Below, piece by piece: positions 6,983-39,503 of a stretch of DNA of 40,379 nt. Location of the stretch: assembly GCA_013373085.1 (NCBI GenBank), contig JABXIM010000137.1, positions 1 to 40,379 on the forward strand, written 5' to 3'. The position numbers were made by a program, and so were the translations under genes. A model generated the notes under the pieces. It did no database searches, was not told the origin of the DNA, and saw only the letters and a program-made list of their open reading frames with translations. The stretch comes from Oceanospirillaceae bacterium. Lineage in GTDB: Bacteria > Pseudomonadota > Gammaproteobacteria > Pseudomonadales > Balneatricaceae. Each line of letters starts with the position of its first letter. Positions within the stretch are counted from its first letter, which is position 1.

Positions 6983-8539
6983 ATGACCACGAAAACGGTA
7001 GATGTGCTTCTTGTCGGTGCCGGTGCGATGAGCACGACCCTCGGTATGCTGCTCAAGCAACTGGACCCGACACTGAAAATCACCCTGGTCGAACGTCTCG
7101 ACCATGTTGCCCACGAAAGCACCGACGGCTGGAACAACGCCGGCACCGGTCACGCGGCATACTGCGAGCTGAACTATACCCCGCAGAAGCCCGACGGCAG
7201 CATCGACACCAGCAAAGCGTTCGCGATCAACTCCGCTTTCGAAGTCAGCCTGCAATTCTGGTCCTACCTGGTCGAGCAGCGCGTCCTCCCCGAACCCAAC
7301 AACTTCATCAACCCCACCCCGCACCAGAGCTTTGTCTGGGGTGAGGAAAACGTCAGCTTCCTGCGCAAGCGTTTCGAAGCGCTGAACGCCCATCCGGCAT
7401 TCGCCGACATGGAGTACAGCGAAGACCCCGACGTGCTGCGCGAATGGATGCCGCTGGTGATGCAGAGCCGCAGTGCCGACGAGGCGGTGGCCGGCACCCG
7501 CGTGCGTTACGGCTCCGACGTCGATTTCGGCTCCCTGGCCCGCTACATGACCGATCATCTCGAACAGCAGCCGGATTTCGAAGTACTGCTGAGCCGCACC
7601 GTCAGGGATCTCAAGCGCAAGTCCGACGGCAGCTGGCGCGTCAAGGTGAAAAATCACCAGACCGGCGAACGGGAAAAACTGTACGCCCGCTTCGTATTCC
7701 TCGGCGCCGGCGGCGGTGCTCTGCCGCTGCTGCAGATGTCCGGTATCGAAGAAGGCAATGGCTACGGCGGCTTCCCGGTCAGCGGCCAGTGGCTGGTGTG
7801 CAAGAAGCCCGAGATCGTCGAGCAGCATCTTGCCAAGGTGTACGGCAAGGCTCCGATCGGCGCGCCGCCGATGTCGGTGCCGCACCTGGACACCCGTATC
7901 ATCAATGGCGAAAAAGCGCTGCTGTTCGGCCCGTTCGCCGGCTTCACCACCAAGTTCCTGAAGAAAGGTTCGAAACTGGACCTGCCGAAGAGCATCAAGG
8001 CCAACAACCTCAAGTCGATGCTGTCGGTGGGCATGAACAACATGGACCTGACCCGCTACCTGATCAGCGAAGTCATGCAGTCCCACGATTCCCGGATCGA
8101 CGCACTGCGCAAGTTCTTCCCGGATGCGCGCAGCGAAGACTGGAGCCTGTCCTACGCCGGCCAGCGGGTGCAGATCATCAAGAAGGACCAGAACAACGGT
8201 GGCGGCAAGCTCGAGTTCGGTACCGAGGTGATCACCGCATCCGACGGCTCGCTCGCGGCGCTGCTGGGCGCATCTCCGGGCGCCTCGACGGCGGTCAACA
8301 CGATGATCAACATTATCGAGCGCTGCTTCCCGGAGCAGATGGCATCGGCTCAGTGGCAGAACAAGATGAAAGCGATGGTACCGTCGTACGGGCAATCGCT
8401 GGTCGAGGATCCGCTACTGCTGAAACAGGTACGCAAGCGCACGCTGTCTGTACTCAAGCTCGACCAGCTGGAAACCTCCAGCCCAAAGTCGTCTGCCGCA
8501 GCTGAACAGCCCGAATTGCGGCAGCCCCTCGCCAGCTGA
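6983..8539 (+). CDS. mqo: Malate:quinone oxidoreductase
   Basis: This 518-residue FAD enzyme oxidises malate to oxaloacetate and passes electrons to membrane quinone, bypassing NAD-linked malate dehydrogenase in the TCA cycle. The N-terminus shows the dinucleotide fold DVLLVGAGAMSTTLGMLL, followed by the Mqo signature GWNNAGTGHAAYCELNYTP at about residues 50-70. GPFAGFTTKFLKKGS (about 315) and SLSYAGQRVQIIKKD (about 390) are also family-typical, and GASPGASTAVNTM near the C-terminus belongs to the flavin site. The length matches the family (about 490-550). The protein is a peripheral inner-membrane protein with no transmembrane segment. GGAG sits 6-9 nt before the ATG. The gene appears monocistronic, with a hairpin after it. 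Confidence 0.96.
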   Translation: MTTKTVDVLLVGAGAMSTTLGMLLKQLDPTLKITLVERLDHVAHESTDGWNNAGTGHAAYCELNYTPQKPDGSIDTSKAFAINSAFEVSLQFWSYLVEQRVLPEPNNFINPTPHQSFVWGEENVSFLRKRFEALNAHPAFADMEYSEDPDVLREWMPLVMQSRSADEAVAGTRVRYGSDVDFGSLARYMTDHLEQQPDFEVLLSRTVRDLKRKSDGSWRVKVKNHQTGEREKLYARFVFLGAGGGALPLLQMSGIEEGNGYGGFPVSGQWLVCKKPEIVEQHLAKVYGKAPIGAPPMSVPHLDTRIINGEKALLFGPFAGFTTKFLKKGSKLDLPKSIKANNLKSMLSVGMNNMDLTRYLISEVMQSHDSRIDALRKFFPDARSEDWSLSYAGQRVQIIKKDQNNGGGKLEFGTEVITASDGSLAALLGASPGASTAVNTMINIIERCFPEQMASAQWQNKMKAMVPSYGQSLVEDPLLLKQVRKRTLSVLKLDQLETSSPKSSAAAEQPELRQPLAS

Positions 8540-11158: not shown

Positions 11159-11389
11159 GGATAATTTCCAATCGTCAGTTAACAATCGCCGGGGTAAGGC
11201 GTTCAGTGTTACTGACAGGCCTCACGCCTCGGGCTTCACGCACTATTGTATCGCCTGCCGTAAATCCTTTGACGTCGGAAATGCACTTTTGTCTCAATCG
11301 GATAGCCGCCGGGCGCACATTGACCCCTCAGGTCCCAGCGACTATTTAGTAAAGGCACTCTTACACCGCATAGTTGGGCCTAAACGACC

Positions 11390-33461: not shown

Positions 33462-34826
33462 TCAGCCATCCCGGCCCTTGCTGATCACCCGCAGCTGGCA
33501 GAACTGGTGAAACCCCTCAACCGAGCCGTGATAGCCGTATCCGCTCTGACGGGCCCCCACCCAGGGACACTCGACAGTGCCGAAACAGCTCTTGTTGACA
33601 CCGATCATGCCGGCATCGAGGTGACGCGCCACCTGCCAGGCCTGCTCCTCGTCCTCGCCGAATACCACGGCGCCGAGACCGAACTGGGTACCGTTGGCCA
33701 GCCGCAGCGCCTCATCCAGCCCGTCATACGCCTGGATGCACATCACCGGACCGAAGGTTTCCTCGCGCATGATCGCCATGTCCGGCGTGCAATCGGCGAG
33801 AATGGTCGGCTTCACATAACGCTCGGGATGATCGTCATCACCGTAGATTCGGCGCGCCCCGGCGGCGAGCGCCGCGGCGATCTGGTCAAGCACGTGCTGG
33901 CGCTGACGTTGGTGAATCATCGGCCCCAGCCGGGCCTGCTCGTCGTGCCACGGCCCCAGGCGGTAGGCAGACGCCAGCCGCGCCACTCGCTGCTCGAAGC
34001 AGATGGATACCTGGCGGTCGACGTAAACGCGTTCGGTGGATACACAGGCCTGACCCGAATTTTCGAAGCTGTTGGCACAGGCGAACTCCGCCGCGGCGTC
34101 TAGATCGGCATCGTCCAGCACCAGCAGCGGGTCCTTGCCGCCGAGTTCCATCATCAGGCGCTTCAGTCCTGAGGCGGCGCGCGCCATGATGTCCTTGCCC
34201 GCTTCGCGCGAACCGGTAAAGGCCACCATATTGATGTCGGCCTCGACCAGCGCCCGTCCCTGCTGCTCGGTGCCCTGAACCACCTGCAACACGTTGCGGG
34301 GCAGGAAGCGGTTGAGCAGATCGGCATACGCCTGACCGGTCAGCGGCGTTTCCTCGGACGGTTTGAACAGCACGGCATTGCCGCCGAGCAGCGCCGGCAA
34401 CAGCATCCACTGCGGCATCGACATCGGGTAGTTCCAGGGACTGATCACCGCGCAAACCCCGAGCGGGTCGTAGTAGAGCGTCGACTCCGTATCCTCGTCG
34501 GCACTGAGCCTCGGCTGCAGCGCCGCCAGCGCCTGCTTGACCCGTGGTGGGATGGAGGCGGCGCAGAAGCGCACTTCGCCAATCCCCTTGCGCAGCGGCT
34601 TGCCCATTTCCTGGCTCAGCAGTTCGCCGAGGGCCTGGGCCTCCTGTTCCAGCGCCCCGGCCGCCTGCAGCAGGCAGCGACCGCGCTCCTCGACGCTGAG
34701 GTGGCTCCACTCGATCTGCGCATCGTGGGCGGCGCAGACCATGGCCGGAATCGCTTCGAGCGGAGTCGTGGGTACTTCCCCTACCGGCTCGCCTGTCGCC
34801 GGATTGAGGGAGATCAGATAGCTCAT
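33462..34826 (-). CDS. NAD(P)-dependent aldehyde dehydrogenase, succinate-semialdehyde dehydrogenase-like
   Basis: This 454-residue enzyme has the ALDH superfamily marks: the cofactor region SPWNYPMSMPQW (about 130) and KPSEETPLTG, FTGSREAGK, the general base Glu227 in MELGGKD, and the nucleophile Cys261 in ENSGQACVSTERVYV. The 34-residue spacing between base and nucleophile is standard. EETFGPV follows near 350. The pattern NPATGEP at the start and the overall length suggest the short succinate-semialdehyde dehydrogenase group, but the substrate cannot be read from sequence. GGAGGTG lies 5 nt before the ATG. It probably stands alone on this strand; no aminotransferase is adjacent to support a GABA pathway. 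Confidence 0.88.
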   Translation of the reverse strand: MSYLISLNPATGEPVGEVPTTPLEAIPAMVCAAHDAQIEWSHLSVEERGRCLLQAAGALEQEAQALGELLSQEMGKPLRKGIGEVRFCAASIPPRVKQALAALQPRLSADEDTESTLYYDPLGVCAVISPWNYPMSMPQWMLLPALLGGNAVLFKPSEETPLTGQAYADLLNRFLPRNVLQVVQGTEQQGRALVEADINMVAFTGSREAGKDIMARAASGLKRLMMELGGKDPLLVLDDADLDAAAEFACANSFENSGQACVSTERVYVDRQVSICFEQRVARLASAYRLGPWHDEQARLGPMIHQRQRQHVLDQIAAALAAGARRIYGDDDHPERYVKPTILADCTPDMAIMREETFGPVMCIQAYDGLDEALRLANGTQFGLGAVVFGEDEEQAWQVARHLDAGMIGVNKSCFGTVECPWVGARQSGYGYHGSVEGFHQFCQLRVISKGRDG

Positions 34827-34887: not shown

Positions 34888-34921
34888 CTTCACCCGGGCT
34901 TCACACGGGAAGGGTTAGGTT
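34888..34921 (+). promoter_or_regulatory. CTTCAC-N5-CTTCAC direct repeat and -10, PAP2 promoter
   Basis: CTTCAC at 34888-34893 and again at 34899-34904, 11 bp apart, fit two OmpR-family monomers on one DNA face. Exactly 11 nt later comes TAGGTT (34916-34921), a weak -10. The second half-site covers the -35 position, as in PmrA-type activation. The same layout precedes eptA. Confidence 0.6.
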
Positions 34922-34960
34922 GGCGCTGAGTCCGGTCCGCTGCAGAGAGACAGATCCGAA

Positions 34961-35695
34961 TTGCCAACATCGACGCAAAATGTCCGTAACGACGCTGTCG
35001 CCGCCCCCACTGCCGATCTGAAACGCTTCTGGATCGGTCATGGCCTGCTGCCACTGCTGACGCTGGCCGCGCTGCAGGAGGCCATCAGTAGGTTCTCGCT
35101 GGACCTGCACCTGGCCGACTACTGGTATCGGCTGGAGGGGGGCACCTGGGCGCTGCGCAATAACTGGCTCACATCCGAACTGCTGCACCACGGCGGTCGG
35201 CAACTCAGTTTCGCGCTGCTCGGTCTGGTACTGCTGTTGCTGCTGCTATCCTGGAGCCACGCCAAGGTCGCGCACTGGCGCCGGCCGTTGGCTTATCTCG
35301 CTATCGCAGCATTGACCAGCGTGGCGCTGGTCAGTCTTGGCAAACACCTGAGCCACCAGGACTGTCCCTGGAGTCTGCTACGCTATGGCGGCGACCGCCT
35401 CTACCATCCGCTGTTCGGCGCCCCCCCCGGCAGCGATAGCGACGGCTGTTTTCCGGCCGGTCATGCCAGCGCCGGCTATGCCTGGCTGGCGTTGTATTTC
35501 GTCTGCCTCCACGGTCGCTCGAAGCGTCACCGCCTGGCGCTGCTACCCGGCCTGCTGCTCGGGCTGCTGTTCGGGCTGGCGCAGCAACTGCGAGGCGCCC
35601 ATTTTCTGTCTCACGATCTCTGGACCCTGGCGATCTGCTGGTTCAGCTCGCTGCTGCTGTACCGCTGGCTGCTGTTGCCGCATAATTCGAATTAG
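34961..35695 (+). CDS. PAP2 family membrane phosphatase
   Basis: This 244-residue protein has about six hydrophobic segments and the three PAP2 phosphatase motifs: GKHLSHQDCPW (motif 1 region, Lys), CFPAGHASAGY (motif 2, His) and LRGAHFLSHDLW (motif 3, Arg, His and Asp). Relatives remove or transfer lipid phosphates, for example on undecaprenyl pyrophosphate or lipid A. The only plausible start is TTG at 34961; no in-frame ATG or GTG was found and its ribosome binding site is poor, so the N-terminus is uncertain. The stop codon TAG is the end of a mobile repeat. Its promoter box matches that of eptA, so a lipid A or envelope phosphate role is likely. Confidence 0.87.
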   Translation: MPTSTQNVRNDAVAAPTADLKRFWIGHGLLPLLTLAALQEAISRFSLDLHLADYWYRLEGGTWALRNNWLTSELLHHGGRQLSFALLGLVLLLLLLSWSHAKVAHWRRPLAYLAIAALTSVALVSLGKHLSHQDCPWSLLRYGGDRLYHPLFGAPPGSDSDGCFPAGHASAGYAWLALYFVCLHGRSKRHRLALLPGLLLGLLFGLAQQLRGAHFLSHDLWTLAICWFSSLLLYRWLLLPHNSN

Positions 35696-35800
35696 GGGCT
35701 GTTGACGCGCCACGCAGCGTTGCTCGTTGCTTATTTGGAGCAACCAAACCGCGTAACTCGCGCCTTGCCTTGTGCGAAAACAACCTCGGCAGGACAGCTA
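35692..35800 (+). mobile_element. MITE-like element, copy 2, right end degraded
   Basis: It begins TTAGGGGCTGTTGACG, where TTAG fits a YTAR target. Long stretches are shared with the reverse strand of copy 1 (GCTTATTTGG, GCAACCAAACC, AACTCGCGC, TTGTGCGAAAACA, CGGCAGGACA), about 85% by eye. The right inverted repeat is reduced to ACAGCTAG. It supplies the PAP2 stop codon and separates that gene from the response regulator. Confidence 0.65.
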
Positions 35801-35854
35801 GGACGCACTGGAGCGTCCGTTCGAACCCGTCGCCGAAAGGGACTCCGTATCGCG

Positions 35855-36553
35855 ATGAAAGTACTGGTTGCCGATGACGACGCCAACATTCTGGCCGGTA
35901 TCGCCGATTTTCTCGAATGGCGCGGCATCGACGCCGACTGCGCCGGCACCGGCAGCCAGGTGCTGGAGCTGTGCCGCCAGAACCGCTACGACGTGCTGAT
36001 CCTCGATGTGATGATGCCTCGACTGGACGGTCTTTCGGCCTGCGAGCGGCTGCGCGAGGAGGGTTGCACGACGCCGATCCTGTTTCTCACCGCGCTGGAC
36101 ACGCTCGAGGACAAGATCCGCGGCTTCCAGGCCGGCGCCGACGACTATCTGGTGAAGCCGTTCGCGATGGCCGAACTGGTATGCCGCGTGGAAGCGCTGA
36201 GCCAGCGGATCTCGCGCCAGAAACTCAGGAAGCTGACATTCGGACCGCTGGAGCTCGACGTCGAACAGGGCACCGCGACCCGCGACGGCGTGCCGCTGGC
36301 GCTGACGCCGCTGACCTTCCGCATTCTCAGGCACCTGGTCGCCCGAGCTCCGCGCACGGTCAGTCGCGAGGAGCTCGAGCACCAGCTGTGGGGCTCGGAG
36401 CCCCCCAGCAGCGACGCCCTGCGCTCGCACCTCTACCAGTTGCGCATGCAGCTGGACAAACCCTTCCCGCACCCTATGCTCGAGACGAAACGCGGGGTCG
36501 GCTTTCGCCTGGTCGCTCCGGCGACAGGGGTGCACGATGAAACAGAAGCTTAG
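35855..36553 (+). CDS. OmpR-family response regulator of the PAP2/eptA locus
   Basis: This 232-residue regulator has a receiver domain (1-118) with acidic pocket Asp7/Asp8, phosphorylated Asp51 in LILDVMMPR, a conserved Thr in FLTALD and Lys in DDYLVKPF. The winged-helix DNA-binding domain covers about 128-225 (LALTPLTFRILRHLV, TVSREELEHQLWG, LRSHLYQLRMQL, ETKRGVGFRL). The ATG at 35855 is chosen because the receiver starts there; the frame continues upstream into the mobile repeat, where reading is not credible. The ribosome binding site is weak and distant (AAAGGGA). It overlaps the kinase gene by 17 nt. I infer that it binds the CTTCAC repeats before PAP2 and eptA. Confidence 0.93.
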   Translation: MKVLVADDDANILAGIADFLEWRGIDADCAGTGSQVLELCRQNRYDVLILDVMMPRLDGLSACERLREEGCTTPILFLTALDTLEDKIRGFQAGADDYLVKPFAMAELVCRVEALSQRISRQKLRKLTFGPLELDVEQGTATRDGVPLALTPLTFRILRHLVARAPRTVSREELEHQLWGSEPPSSDALRSHLYQLRMQLDKPFPHPMLETKRGVGFRLVAPATGVHDETEA

Positions 36554-37751
36554 CCGCAAGATCATCCTCACCGTCGGCCTGTCGACCTTTGTGCTGATGA
36601 GCCTCTACTGGTTGCTGGGCTGGCAGCTGGTCGAGCGGATCGAATATCAGAGCCGCCAGCAGTTCGTCGACTATATCGGCTCGCGAGTCGATGAGGTGCT
36701 GACCGGAAAGGTCCCGCAACAGGCGCTGCAGTTGTTCGATATGCTGACGCTGCTGCAGGCATCCGACGAGGTCCCGAGCGCCTGGCGCTCGCTGCCGGTG
36801 CCGACGACCGAGGAACTGTCCGACGAGGCGTTGCTGGTCGTGCGTCCCCATCCGCAAACCGGCGCAGCCTACTATCTCGTGCTGCACCAGCTCGATCAGG
36901 TGCTGGAAAGCCAGCAGCAGGAAGAGGTTGAAATGGGTCTGGTGCTCGGCGGCATCGCCCTGATCACCGTCGGTGCCATGGGCCTGACGCTGCTGATCAC
37001 CTGGCAGCTGACCCGGCCGATACGGCAGCTGTCCCGGCAGTTGGAACAGATCAATCCGGCGCAGCCCGCGCTGCAGCCGCTCGAAAGCGACGATGAGATC
37101 GGCTTCATGAGCCGTCAGTTCTCGACGCTGCTTCAGCGCACAGCGGATTTCATGCGCCGCGAGCGCGATTTCACCCGCTTTGCCAGCCACGAACTGCGAT
37201 CACCTGTGATGGTGGTACGCAGCTCTCTCGACCTGCTGCGCGAGACAGTACCGCCAACGCCGGTCAACAGCCGCGCTCTGAAACGTATCGACGACGCCAC
37301 GCTGCGCATGAATCAGTTGATCGAAGCCTTCCTCTGGCTCGGCCGCGAAGCCAAGCCGGCGCCGGACAGCATCGTCGACAAGGCTGCGCTCGTACGACTG
37401 CTCGAGGACCTGTTCAACACTCATCCCGATCTGCAGTCGCGCCACCTCGAGGTGACGCTTGGCGACTGTCGCTGGAAGGTACAGCCGTTCGTGCTGTCGG
37501 TCGTCATCGACAACCTGCTGCGCAATGCCCTGATTCACGGTGACGGCACGATCAGGATCAGCAGCGATGCCGCCACCCTGTCGATCTGCAACGACATCAG
37601 CGACAGCGAGCCCGGTGGCGGAGAAAGCCACGGCTACGGCCTGCTGATCGCCGAGCAGCTATGTCAGCAGGCCGGCATCGTGCTGGAGTTGACACCACAG
37701 CCGGAACGCTACTGCGCGCGTCTGCATTTCGGCGATCAGACCGGGCCCTGA
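36537..37751 (+). CDS. Sensor histidine kinase partner of the response regulator
   Basis: This 404-residue kinase has a transmembrane helix at about 9-29, a periplasmic domain of about 100 residues, a second helix at about 132-154 and a HAMP linker (TRPIRQLSRQLEQI). A HisKA domain follows with His218 in FASHELRSP, and an ATPase domain with the N box DNLLRNALIHGDG and a short, somewhat degenerate G region (ISDSEPGGGESHGYGLLIAEQL). The signal is unknown; EptA regulators often sense cationic peptides, metals or acid. AGGGGTG lies before the ATG, inside the end of the regulator gene. Its last 16 nt overlap eptA on the opposite strand. Confidence 0.93.
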   Translation: MKQKLSRKIILTVGLSTFVLMSLYWLLGWQLVERIEYQSRQQFVDYIGSRVDEVLTGKVPQQALQLFDMLTLLQASDEVPSAWRSLPVPTTEELSDEALLVVRPHPQTGAAYYLVLHQLDQVLESQQQEEVEMGLVLGGIALITVGAMGLTLLITWQLTRPIRQLSRQLEQINPAQPALQPLESDDEIGFMSRQFSTLLQRTADFMRRERDFTRFASHELRSPVMVVRSSLDLLRETVPPTPVNSRALKRIDDATLRMNQLIEAFLWLGREAKPAPDSIVDKAALVRLLEDLFNTHPDLQSRHLEVTLGDCRWKVQPFVLSVVIDNLLRNALIHGDGTIRISSDAATLSICNDISDSEPGGGESHGYGLLIAEQLCQQAGIVLELTPQPERYCARLHFGDQTGP

Positions 37752-39433
37752 GCGTCGCGCTTGCGATCCAGTGCCAGTGTAGCGGAGGCATGACGGCAAC
37801 CCTGGAAGATATCCAGCGACGGATCGTACACCCGGGTGCGGACGTTCATCAGTCCCAAAACCGAATGCGCCAGGTTGTCATGGCTGACCGCCTGCTGACG
37901 CTCGGCGCGCAGGCATTCGGTATCGACGCCGTCGCGCTGCGCCATTCCCTGCGACAGCCACATCAGGAAAGGAATATGGGTCTGCTCGGACGGCGCCAGC
38001 AGGTATGGCATGCCGTGCAGGTAAATGTTGCCCTCGCCCAGCGACTCGCCGTGATCCGACATATATAGCATGGCGCTGTCGAAACGATCCTGTCGTGCTT
38101 TCAGAAAGGCGATCACCCGACCGAGGAAGTGGTCCGTATAGAGGATGGTGTTGTCGTAGGCATTGCGGATCGACTGTTCGCTGCAGGCCTGCAACTGATT
38201 GCTGTCGCATACCGGCGTAAAGCGTTCGAAGGCCTGTGGATAACGCTCGTAGTAGGCCGGGCCATGGCTGCCCTTCTGGTGCAGCACCACCACCTTGTCG
38301 CCCGGACCGGAGCGCAGATAGTCATCGAGCGCCGTCAGCATGGTCTCGTCATAGCACTCGTGTTCGCCGCAGAACTGCGCTGCGTCGAACAGACTCGGAG
38401 GCTGCTGGTCGATCCGCTCGCAGACGCCCTTGCAGCCGGAATTGTTGTCGCGCCACAGCACTCCGATACCGGCATGGTGCAGCACATCGAGCAGATTCTC
38501 ACGATGACGCTCCAGCCCCTTGTCGTAGTCGCTGCGCCGCTTGAGCGAAAACATACACGGCAGCGATTCCGCGGTACTGGTGCCGCAGGAGGTCGTCTGG
38601 TCGAAATAGATCACCGATGCCTGCTGCAGACTGGGGTTGGTGTCGCGCTCGTAACCGCCCAGGGAGAAATTGGCCGCGCGTGCGGTTTCCCCCACCACCA
38701 GCACCAGCAGCTTGGGACGCGCATTCGGGCTCGAGGTCTCGACCACCTGCGCATCCTCGCCGACCGATTGCAGCGGCGCCGACTCGGCATCATAGGCGCC
38801 GGCCAGATAGCGGCTGCCGTAGTAGAGGTAGTTGGACGGCACCGCCAGGTTGCGGATCTGGCGATTGTTGCGGAACAGTGACGAATAATCCTTGAACAGC
38901 ACCGCCGCATTGAGACCGATCACCACCAGGCACAGCGACACCGACACCAGCACCGAACGCAACTCGCCAGCGGTTGACTGTTTGCGAATCCGAATCGCCA
39001 GCACCAGCAGCGACGGCAGCAGTCCGTACAGCAGCAAATGCAGCAGCAGCGGCAGACTGAACAGCTCGCTTGCCTCGGCGATATCGGTTTCGAAGAGATT
39101 CTGCACCATCGACTTGTCGACAAGGATGCCGTACGTCGTCATGAAGTAGGACACCATGGCGGCACTCGACAGCAGCAATACCGCCAGCGGCTTCAGCAGC
39201 GGCCTAAATCCTACCGGTGTCAGCAGCAGCAGATAAATCGCGACCATAAAAGAGAAAAAGCCGCCAACGAAGAGCAGCCGCGACAACTGGCTGCTGGCCG
39301 GCTGGCTCGATACCAGATGCCACAACGGCGTGTTGTAACAGAGCACCAGCACCAAACACAGCAGCAGGCGAAACTGTCCGGCGGACAGCACAGGGCGCAG
39401 ACGTTTCCAGCCTGCAGGCAGAGCAAGGATCAT
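37736..39433 (-). CDS. eptA: Phosphoethanolamine transferase EptA
   Basis: This 565-residue inner-membrane enzyme transfers phosphoethanolamine to lipid A, lowering surface charge and binding of cationic peptides. Five transmembrane helices occupy about residues 20-180. The periplasmic sulfatase-fold domain follows, with VVGETARAANFSLGGY (metal Glu), the nucleophile Thr at about 285 in SCGTSTAESLPCMFS, YDNTILYTDHFLG and MSDHGESLGE (metal Asp and His). Its periplasmic domain also carries several cysteines likely to form the usual disulphides. The promoter, with a CTTCAC repeat like that of PAP2, gives a leader of about 30 nt. It faces the histidine kinase gene tail to tail, overlapping by 16 nt. 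Confidence 0.94.
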   Translation of the reverse strand: MILALPAGWKRLRPVLSAGQFRLLLCLVLVLCYNTPLWHLVSSQPASSQLSRLLFVGGFFSFMVAIYLLLLTPVGFRPLLKPLAVLLLSSAAMVSYFMTTYGILVDKSMVQNLFETDIAEASELFSLPLLLHLLLYGLLPSLLVLAIRIRKQSTAGELRSVLVSVSLCLVVIGLNAAVLFKDYSSLFRNNRQIRNLAVPSNYLYYGSRYLAGAYDAESAPLQSVGEDAQVVETSSPNARPKLLVLVVGETARAANFSLGGYERDTNPSLQQASVIYFDQTTSCGTSTAESLPCMFSLKRRSDYDKGLERHRENLLDVLHHAGIGVLWRDNNSGCKGVCERIDQQPPSLFDAAQFCGEHECYDETMLTALDDYLRSGPGDKVVVLHQKGSHGPAYYERYPQAFERFTPVCDSNQLQACSEQSIRNAYDNTILYTDHFLGRVIAFLKARQDRFDSAMLYMSDHGESLGEGNIYLHGMPYLLAPSEQTHIPFLMWLSQGMAQRDGVDTECLRAERQQAVSHDNLAHSVLGLMNVRTRVYDPSLDIFQGCRHASATLALDRKRDAQGPV

Positions 39434-39469
39434 GGAGCATTGTCCCCAATACGGTGATCGTTGCGCCCT

Positions 39470-39503
39470 ACCCTAACTCTGTCTACGTGAGGCCAGTGTG
39501 AAG
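39470..39503 (-). promoter_or_regulatory. CTTCAC-N5-CCTCAC direct repeat and -10, eptA promoter
   Basis: On the minus strand, CTTCAC (39503-39498) and CCTCAC (39492-39487) are 11 bp apart. TAGGGT (39475-39470) follows after exactly 11 nt. The arrangement is the same as at 34888-34921. It fits in the 74-nt gap between the MFS gene stop and the eptA start. Confidence 0.6.

Follow-up and report, generated by a model that had tools for sequence, protein, structure and literature searches.

Do two similar direct-repeat boxes on opposite strands of one locus serve as operators of a single regulator, and, if so, to which known family would this regulator belong? We asked this question for a 40,379-nucleotide (nt) stretch of DNA from an Oceanospirillaceae bacterium (contig JABXIM010000137.1), hereafter the window, in which the boxes enclose 4 genes encoding a PAP2-family phosphatase, a response regulator (RR), a sensor histidine kinase (HK) and the phosphoethanolamine–lipid A transferase EptA. 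The first-pass annotation of this DNA had described 2 hexamers followed, after 11 nt, by TAGGTT or TAGGGT at both promoters, and all these elements are present. Its picture of boxes on opposite strands flanking the RR/HK pair also holds but is incomplete: PAP2 and eptA lie inside the box pair as well, with PAP2-RR-HK and eptA being convergent. With a probability of roughly 0.8, we regard the window as carrying a ColRS-like lipid A remodelling module, in which a metal-sensing kinase would signal to a ColR-like regulator activating both promoters. The features of the module are the following (aa, amino acids):

34888..34904, plus strand: operator 1, CTTCAC-N5-CTTCAC, PAP2-RR-HK promoter, CTTCACCCGGGCTTCAC
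34916..34921, plus strand: predicted −10 hexamer TAGGTT, 11 nt 3′ of operator 1
34961..35695, plus strand: PAP2-family phosphatase, LpxE-like, 244 aa, TTG start (Pfam PAP2, E=1e-12)
35855..36553, plus strand: OmpR/PhoB-family response regulator, ColR-like, 232 aa
36537..37751, plus strand: sensor histidine kinase, ColS/RaxH-like, 404 aa, with periplasmic ExxE motifs
37736..39433, minus strand: phosphoethanolamine–lipid A transferase EptA, 565 aa (NF028537)
39475-39470, minus strand: predicted −10 hexamer TAGGGT, 11 nt 3′ of operator 2
39503-39487, minus strand: operator 2, CTTCAC-N5-CCTCAC, eptA promoter, CTTCACACTGGCCTCAC

Two non-random sites in the genome

The box alone was rejected as evidence, because it is no commoner than expected or than a control: with up to 2 mismatches, it matches 4 times in the window versus 5.1 expected, and with up to 1 mismatch, 37 times genome-wide (5 exact matches) versus 42 for a reversed control pattern. 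When the box was combined with the 11-nt spacer and TANNNT, 2 matches were obtained in the window and none in any of 100 window shuffles. In a genome search of the kind that the first-pass annotation had called for, TTCACN6YTCACN(10-12)TANNNT has 2 perfect matches in the 5.78-Mb genome, both at this locus, and the reversed control has 1. Among the 30 loci obtained from the 37 box-only matches,.A...T at 11 nt accompanies just the 2 window boxes. The boxes are real and non-random, and at perfect-match stringency the predicted regulon consists of 2 sites in the genome.

A fixed promoter architecture across relatives

Matches to the regulator were found in 29 genomes, including that of the window; wider stretches were taken for 19 of the others (20 regions), and 9 were omitted. 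The comparison covered 17 clusters, namely, the window and relatives with tblastn matches to EptA, the regulator and the kinase, each genome being represented once. Twelve clusters are convergent, that is, of the window's type with 2 boxes each, and 5 are unidirectional eptA/regulator/kinase clusters with a single box before eptA, 4 of them with PAP2 in between. A total of 29 sites were picked by the TTCAC-N6-YTCAC pattern and position, taking one promoter-proximal box per promoter; the −10 columns played no part in this selection.

Boxes are located at both promoters in all 12 convergent-type clusters (window included). At a spacer of 11 nt,.A...T is present at 29/29 sites and TANNNT at 23/29, compared with at most 6/29 and 1/29, respectively, at other spacers (6-10 and 12-16 nt). 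The information content averages 1.60 bits per box column, partly as a result of the selection, versus 0.06 bits in the flanks. Four boxes situated away from the PAP2 and eptA promoters in the 17 loci, which were set aside as a control, do not have.A...T at 11 nt. The TAGG previously included in the operator pattern acts instead as part of a −10 hexamer, whose second-position A (A2) and sixth-position T (T6) are invariant across the aligned sites. The promoter scan detected no sigma-70-like promoter and no −35 element at either window site, so that the box, rather than overlapping the −35 element as had been assumed, occupies its place and may stand in for it. Promoters of the predicted class II of PhoP are described as having hexamer repeats five nucleotides apart, about 12 nt before the −10 element (PMC3335776). 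The layout found here fits this OmpR/PhoB type, in which a direct-repeat box precedes the −10 hexamer by about 11-12 nt and a good −35 element is lacking, and by this analogy both window promoters are most likely class II activated.

The genus was represented by 7 genomes, including that of the window, with the presence of the regulator assessed at E<=1e-40. The regulator is carried by 6 of the 7 genomes, and each of the 6 has exactly 2 perfect pattern matches, all at the module, whereas the genome without the regulator has none; the reversed control pattern has 1 match summed over the 7 genomes. Conservation in relatives, one of the checks by which the proposal was to stand or fall, thus speaks for it, through both the box pairs in the convergent clusters and the perfect sites accompanying the regulator in the genus. 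The idea of an OmpR-family direct-repeat operator at both promoters is supported, as is, by operator conservation in relatives, that of PAP2 and eptA as one co-regulated module.

The regulator is related to ColR

Searched against a Pseudomonas brassicacearum genome, the window regulator has a best match at 44-45% and 213 bits, with the next one at 136 bits; reciprocally, a search of the window genome with the ColR-like protein of P. brassicacearum has the window regulator at the top with 212 bits, ahead of a runner-up with 152 bits. The P. brassicacearum match adjoins a divergent PAP2 gene and precedes a kinase gene, as described for colR in P. putida (PMC2689224), and we infer the name ColR for the Pseudomonas gene from this shared neighbourhood. 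A quick tree of 68 regulators places the window protein and the ColR-like rows together in a clade of 46 rows (SH-aLRT 99), the branching order within which is unsettled. The genome encodes 14 other OmpR-family regulators at E<=1e-20, and the paralogs scoring highest on the PmrA, PhoP and TctD models fall outside the ColR clade.

The operators point in the same direction. The published ColR consensus, YYNASNNYTTTTTSAC, is described as consisting of paired TT(C/G)AC-like half-sites that repeat every 11 bp; ColR is also reported to protect the promoter of PP0900, a PAP2 gene, in footprinting and to activate it (PMC2689224). The window sites agree with these half-sites and with the 11-bp period. 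Judging from reciprocal best matches, the tree clade and the half-sites, the nearest characterised relative of the window regulator is ColR and not, as the first-pass annotation had suggested, PmrA, which was rejected as the closest relative on scores, tree and half-site.

Enzymes and sensor kinase

The EptA protein scores 636 bits on NF028537, above the cut-off of 500, and is the sole match above the family cut-off in the genome; on the narrower PRK11598 model, it reaches 603, below the cut-off of 660. The PAP2 protein retains K128, P136, P165, G167, H168 and H214, spaced as described for Xanthomonas LpxE (PMC8306577), which is consistent with an LpxE-like phosphatase. Its scores on the curated lipid A phosphatase models are below both cut-offs (71.8 bits versus 275 for PAP2_lipid_A and 25.3 versus 400 for LpxF), and comparison with solved structures gave no match up to E=1. 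In the kinase, the E33xxE36 motif directly follows the first transmembrane segment (TM1), with both Glu residues present in all 11 aligned kinases; the columns of E129xxE132, located before TM2, read E..E in 7, E..D in 3 and G..E in 1 of the 11. The TM2-proximal ExxE motif of ColS is reported to be required for zinc and iron (PMC4074579), and Xanthomonas RaxH is described as having one ExxE after TM1 and another before TM2 (PMC8306577).

Proposed mechanism

In the scheme that we favour, the ColS/RaxH-like kinase would sense excess metal, probably via its periplasmic ExxE motifs, and phosphorylate the ColR-like regulator (35855-36553), a dimer of which would then bind head-to-tail to the TTCAC-N6-YTCAC repeats with their 11-bp period and recruit RNA polymerase at 2 promoters devoid of a recognisable −35 element, consistent with class II activation. 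Promoter 1 would drive PAP2-RR-HK, presumably an operon, yielding more enzyme and more regulator, and promoter 2 would drive eptA from the far side, convergently, with the LpxE-like phosphatase and EptA jointly remodelling lipid A phosphates. The regulator probably activates its own gene too, because RR and HK lie 3′ of PAP2 in the same orientation, making positive feedback likely. The 3′ ends of the HK and eptA coding regions share 16 bp (37736-37751). Since the 2 units converge with overlapping last genes, strong induction could cause mutual interference.

The genes adjacent to the box pair, on its outer sides, are the following:

33462-34826, minus strand: aldehyde dehydrogenase (ALDH) gene
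from 39508, minus strand: major facilitator superfamily (MFS) transporter gene, its stop 4 bp from the eptA box

In the seventh genus genome, about 490 bp separate the homologous ALDH (80% identical) and MFS (76%) genes, and PAP2, regulator, kinase and EptA all lack a match within the 3 kb around this locus. EptA is without a match at E<=1e-10 anywhere in this genome, in which the ColR-like query scores 128 bits at best, versus 212 in the window genome. The eptA-side box is lost.

Several observations weigh against the proposed scheme or its reach. In the seventh genome, the PAP2-side box persists as a one-mismatch match with intact half-sites, followed by the hexamer CAGGGT, which still has A2 and T6; the loss of the regulator is therefore not matched by the loss of both operators. 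A reading of this leftover box as decayed was dropped on account of the intact half-sites and −10 positions, all the more as 6/29 aligned sites likewise do without the first T of the hexamer. By eye, the box precedes an apparent remnant of an extra PAP2-like gene that other genus members have. From these sequences, the module can disappear in one piece, but its operators do not go cleanly with it. Within the genus, allowing one mismatch gives 39 matches in the 7 genomes (12 perfect and 27 others) versus 14 for the control, and, besides the 12 perfect sites, one one-mismatch site recurs in 7/7 genomes and 2 more in 3/7 each, so that further targets or another factor are possible. The central T-tract of the 16-bp ColR consensus is absent from both window sites, and none of the 4 sites between colR and PAP2 in 3 Pseudomonas genomes has.A...T at 11 nt. 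Outside the genus, the pattern occurs at chance level overall, with 26 matches versus 35 for the control in 50 genomes. Finally, P. putida colR is reportedly not autoregulated (PMC2689224), from which the feedback proposed here would differ.

Three loci (L249, L250 and L251) were inspected among the 27 non-perfect matches. The recurrent one-mismatch site, TTCAGGTTACTTTCAC followed by a hexamer at 11 nt, is found at L250:1501-1533 and equivalent positions in 7/7 genus genomes, including the regulator-less one; it is situated between reading frames in L250 and may serve another factor.

Alternative explanations

A different OmpR-family member of this bacterium could bind the boxes, with the neighbouring pair having other targets. 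The 14 further family members supply candidates, and both the box persisting in the genus genome without the window-type regulator and the similar one-mismatch site in all 7 genus genomes would fit such a scenario. We nevertheless consider it unlikely, because perfect site pairs are found in the 6 genomes in which the regulator is a neighbour and none in the genome without it, and the half-sites agree with those published for ColR, the nearest characterised relative (PMC2689224); the persisting box, located before the apparent gene remnant where the module is gone, may be a leftover. Repression rather than activation of both promoters by the ColR-like regulator would be compatible with the box in the −35 place, where a bound protein could block the polymerase, and with the negative action of ColR on one tested P. 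putida promoter, PP0737 (PMC2689224). The scan, however, found no −35 element at either promoter, the spacing to the −10 hexamer is constant, as in the PhoP promoters predicted to be class II (PMC3335776), and the remaining ColR-responsive P. putida promoters tested were reportedly affected positively (PMC2689224), which makes repression very unlikely.

The operators of PmrA consist of TTAAG-type half-sites in direct-repeat geometry, and in view of this geometry the window pair could be a genuine PmrAB pair like that of pmrCAB operons, acting through a divergent PmrA box. PmrA is, moreover, the top NCBIfam model for the window regulator. The score of 163.6 bits is, however, far from the cut-off of 330; other regulators from this genome (L182) and from P. 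brassicacearum (L178) score higher on PmrA (234 and 238, also under the cut-off) and fall outside the ColR clade, and the reciprocal best match of the window regulator is the ColR-like gene. Neither window box contains TTAAG, bearing out the earlier remark that the hexamer differs from the classical PmrA box. A PmrAB system is accordingly very unlikely, and a ColR-like regulator activating both promoters is the reading that we retain.

Wider occurrence of the operator

As a regulon finder beyond the genus, the pattern proved unproductive; 5 of its 26 matches are at cluster promoters. A wider scan covered 16 loci, each in part. The.A...T at 11 nt is kept at 6 sites in 5 loci (L120, L125, L126, L073 and, twice, L078) and missing at 7 sites in another 5 (L169 and L170, twice each, L171, L172 and L110), and there is no site within the scanned stretch of L071, L096, L106, L107, L109 and L121 (6/16). 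Four betaproteobacterial clusters with an EptA match (L107, L120, L125 and L126) were kept out of the 17 and scanned separately with a looser pattern: TTGAC-N6-TTGAC with.A...T at 11 nt is present in 3 of them, on the eptA strand and before the regulator gene (the EptA match of L125 being some 2 kb away), and L107 is the one without a site in the scanned stretch. The Vibrio relatives L106 and L109 have no such box directly upstream of the regulator gene, and L073 has one box upstream of its regulator, with.A...T at 11 nt.

We tentatively propose, at somewhat less than even odds, that regulators of the ColR clade in Gamma- and Betaproteobacteria share the operator grammar TT(C/G)AC-N6-YT(C/G)AC-N11-(−10), which in the genus would have been narrowed to a private, self-amplifying, convergent and block-losable two-promoter regulon. 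A universal 11-nt rule is contradicted by the 4/4 Pseudomonas sites without.A...T and by the siteless loci.

Additional sites were observed in several of these loci. The order-level relative L078 has 2 TTTCACATCCATTTCAC boxes of the TTTCAC form (8058-8074 and 11305-11321), both with.A...T at 11 nt; a unit with the regulator pair follows one of them and, by eye, putative ABC transporter genes follow the other. This putatively represents a similar operator with different targets. In Atopomonas hussainii, ColR-type repeats (L169:2792-2818) lie 3′ of the ColR-like pair and are followed by a DgkA-like gene (by eye) and by a phosphoethanolamine transferase-like gene with 26% identity to EptA. At a second Atopomonas regulator pair (L121:7106-7139), CTTCACGTTAGCTTGAC is followed, after 11 nt, by TAGCCT immediately before the gene 3′ of the kinase. 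In L172, another gene may intervene between colR and PAP2.

Comparison with known systems

Neighbourhoods of eptA, PAP2/lpxE and regulator pairs have already been published (PMC10285318, PMC8306577). As in Pseudomonas ColRS, the PAP2 gene of the window adjoins the regulator pair and the kinase has an ExxE just before TM2 (PMC4074579), and eptA of P. aeruginosa is reported to be zinc-induced via ColRS (PMC9952513). In Pseudomonas, however, PAP2 is described as divergent from colR, with eptA elsewhere (PMC8306577), the predicted targets number more than 40 genes and a T-tract forms part of the box (PMC2689224), and the Pseudomonas sites examined here do not follow the 11-nt rule. Xanthomonas RaxRH resembles the window in having the regulator pair beside lpxE and eptA and a kinase with two ExxE motifs, but its lpxE and eptA are overlapping neighbours (PMC8306577), whereas in the window the regulator pair lies between PAP2 and eptA, which are convergent; unlike RaxRH with arnT, the window has no arnT between the boxes. 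The wording "binding site" does not occur in the text of the RaxRH report (PMC8306577). PmrAB/pmrCAB shares the EptA target and sensor ExxE motifs (PMC8306577). A direct-repeat operator is another common trait, but with a different half-site, and the window regulator scores far below what the PmrA model requires and branches apart from the PmrA-like paralogs. In mcr-1-pap2 cassettes, PAP2 likewise adjoins a phosphoethanolamine transferase gene, although the authors describe no specific regulator found with mcr-1; the locus EGY13_RS05385 is also accompanied by a PmrAB-like pair and a divergent pap2, but shares one operon with its regulator pair (PMC10285318).

Our literature search found no paper that connects lipid A and phosphoethanolamine, or ColR and two-component systems, with Marinobacterium. 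The gene content is known, and the conserved two-promoter operator appears to be new. The initial two-site observation now stands as an operator that can be tested, set in promoters of constant layout, marine eptA-PAP2-regulator clusters are tied to the metal-responsive ColRS/RaxRH family rather than to PmrAB, and the regulon, with 2 promoters at perfect match, is small enough for complete study. Many bacteria owe their polymyxin tolerance to phosphoethanolamine transferases, and the signal switching on environmental eptA genes is therefore worth knowing.

Variation of the PAP2 region among relatives

The gap between PAP2 and RR, about 160 bp in the window, is replaced in Marinobacterium sediminicola by an overlap of 4 bp, based on the coordinates of the open reading frames. 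The PAP2 frame of this species (L067:7096-7542) is only 148 aa long, aligns with residues 45-126 of its window counterpart and thus looks shortened. In L064 (leader 7993-8300), and likewise in L062, L063 and L065, an extra PAP2-like reading frame is visible by eye between the box and the main PAP2, so that the operator there would precede an additional first gene.

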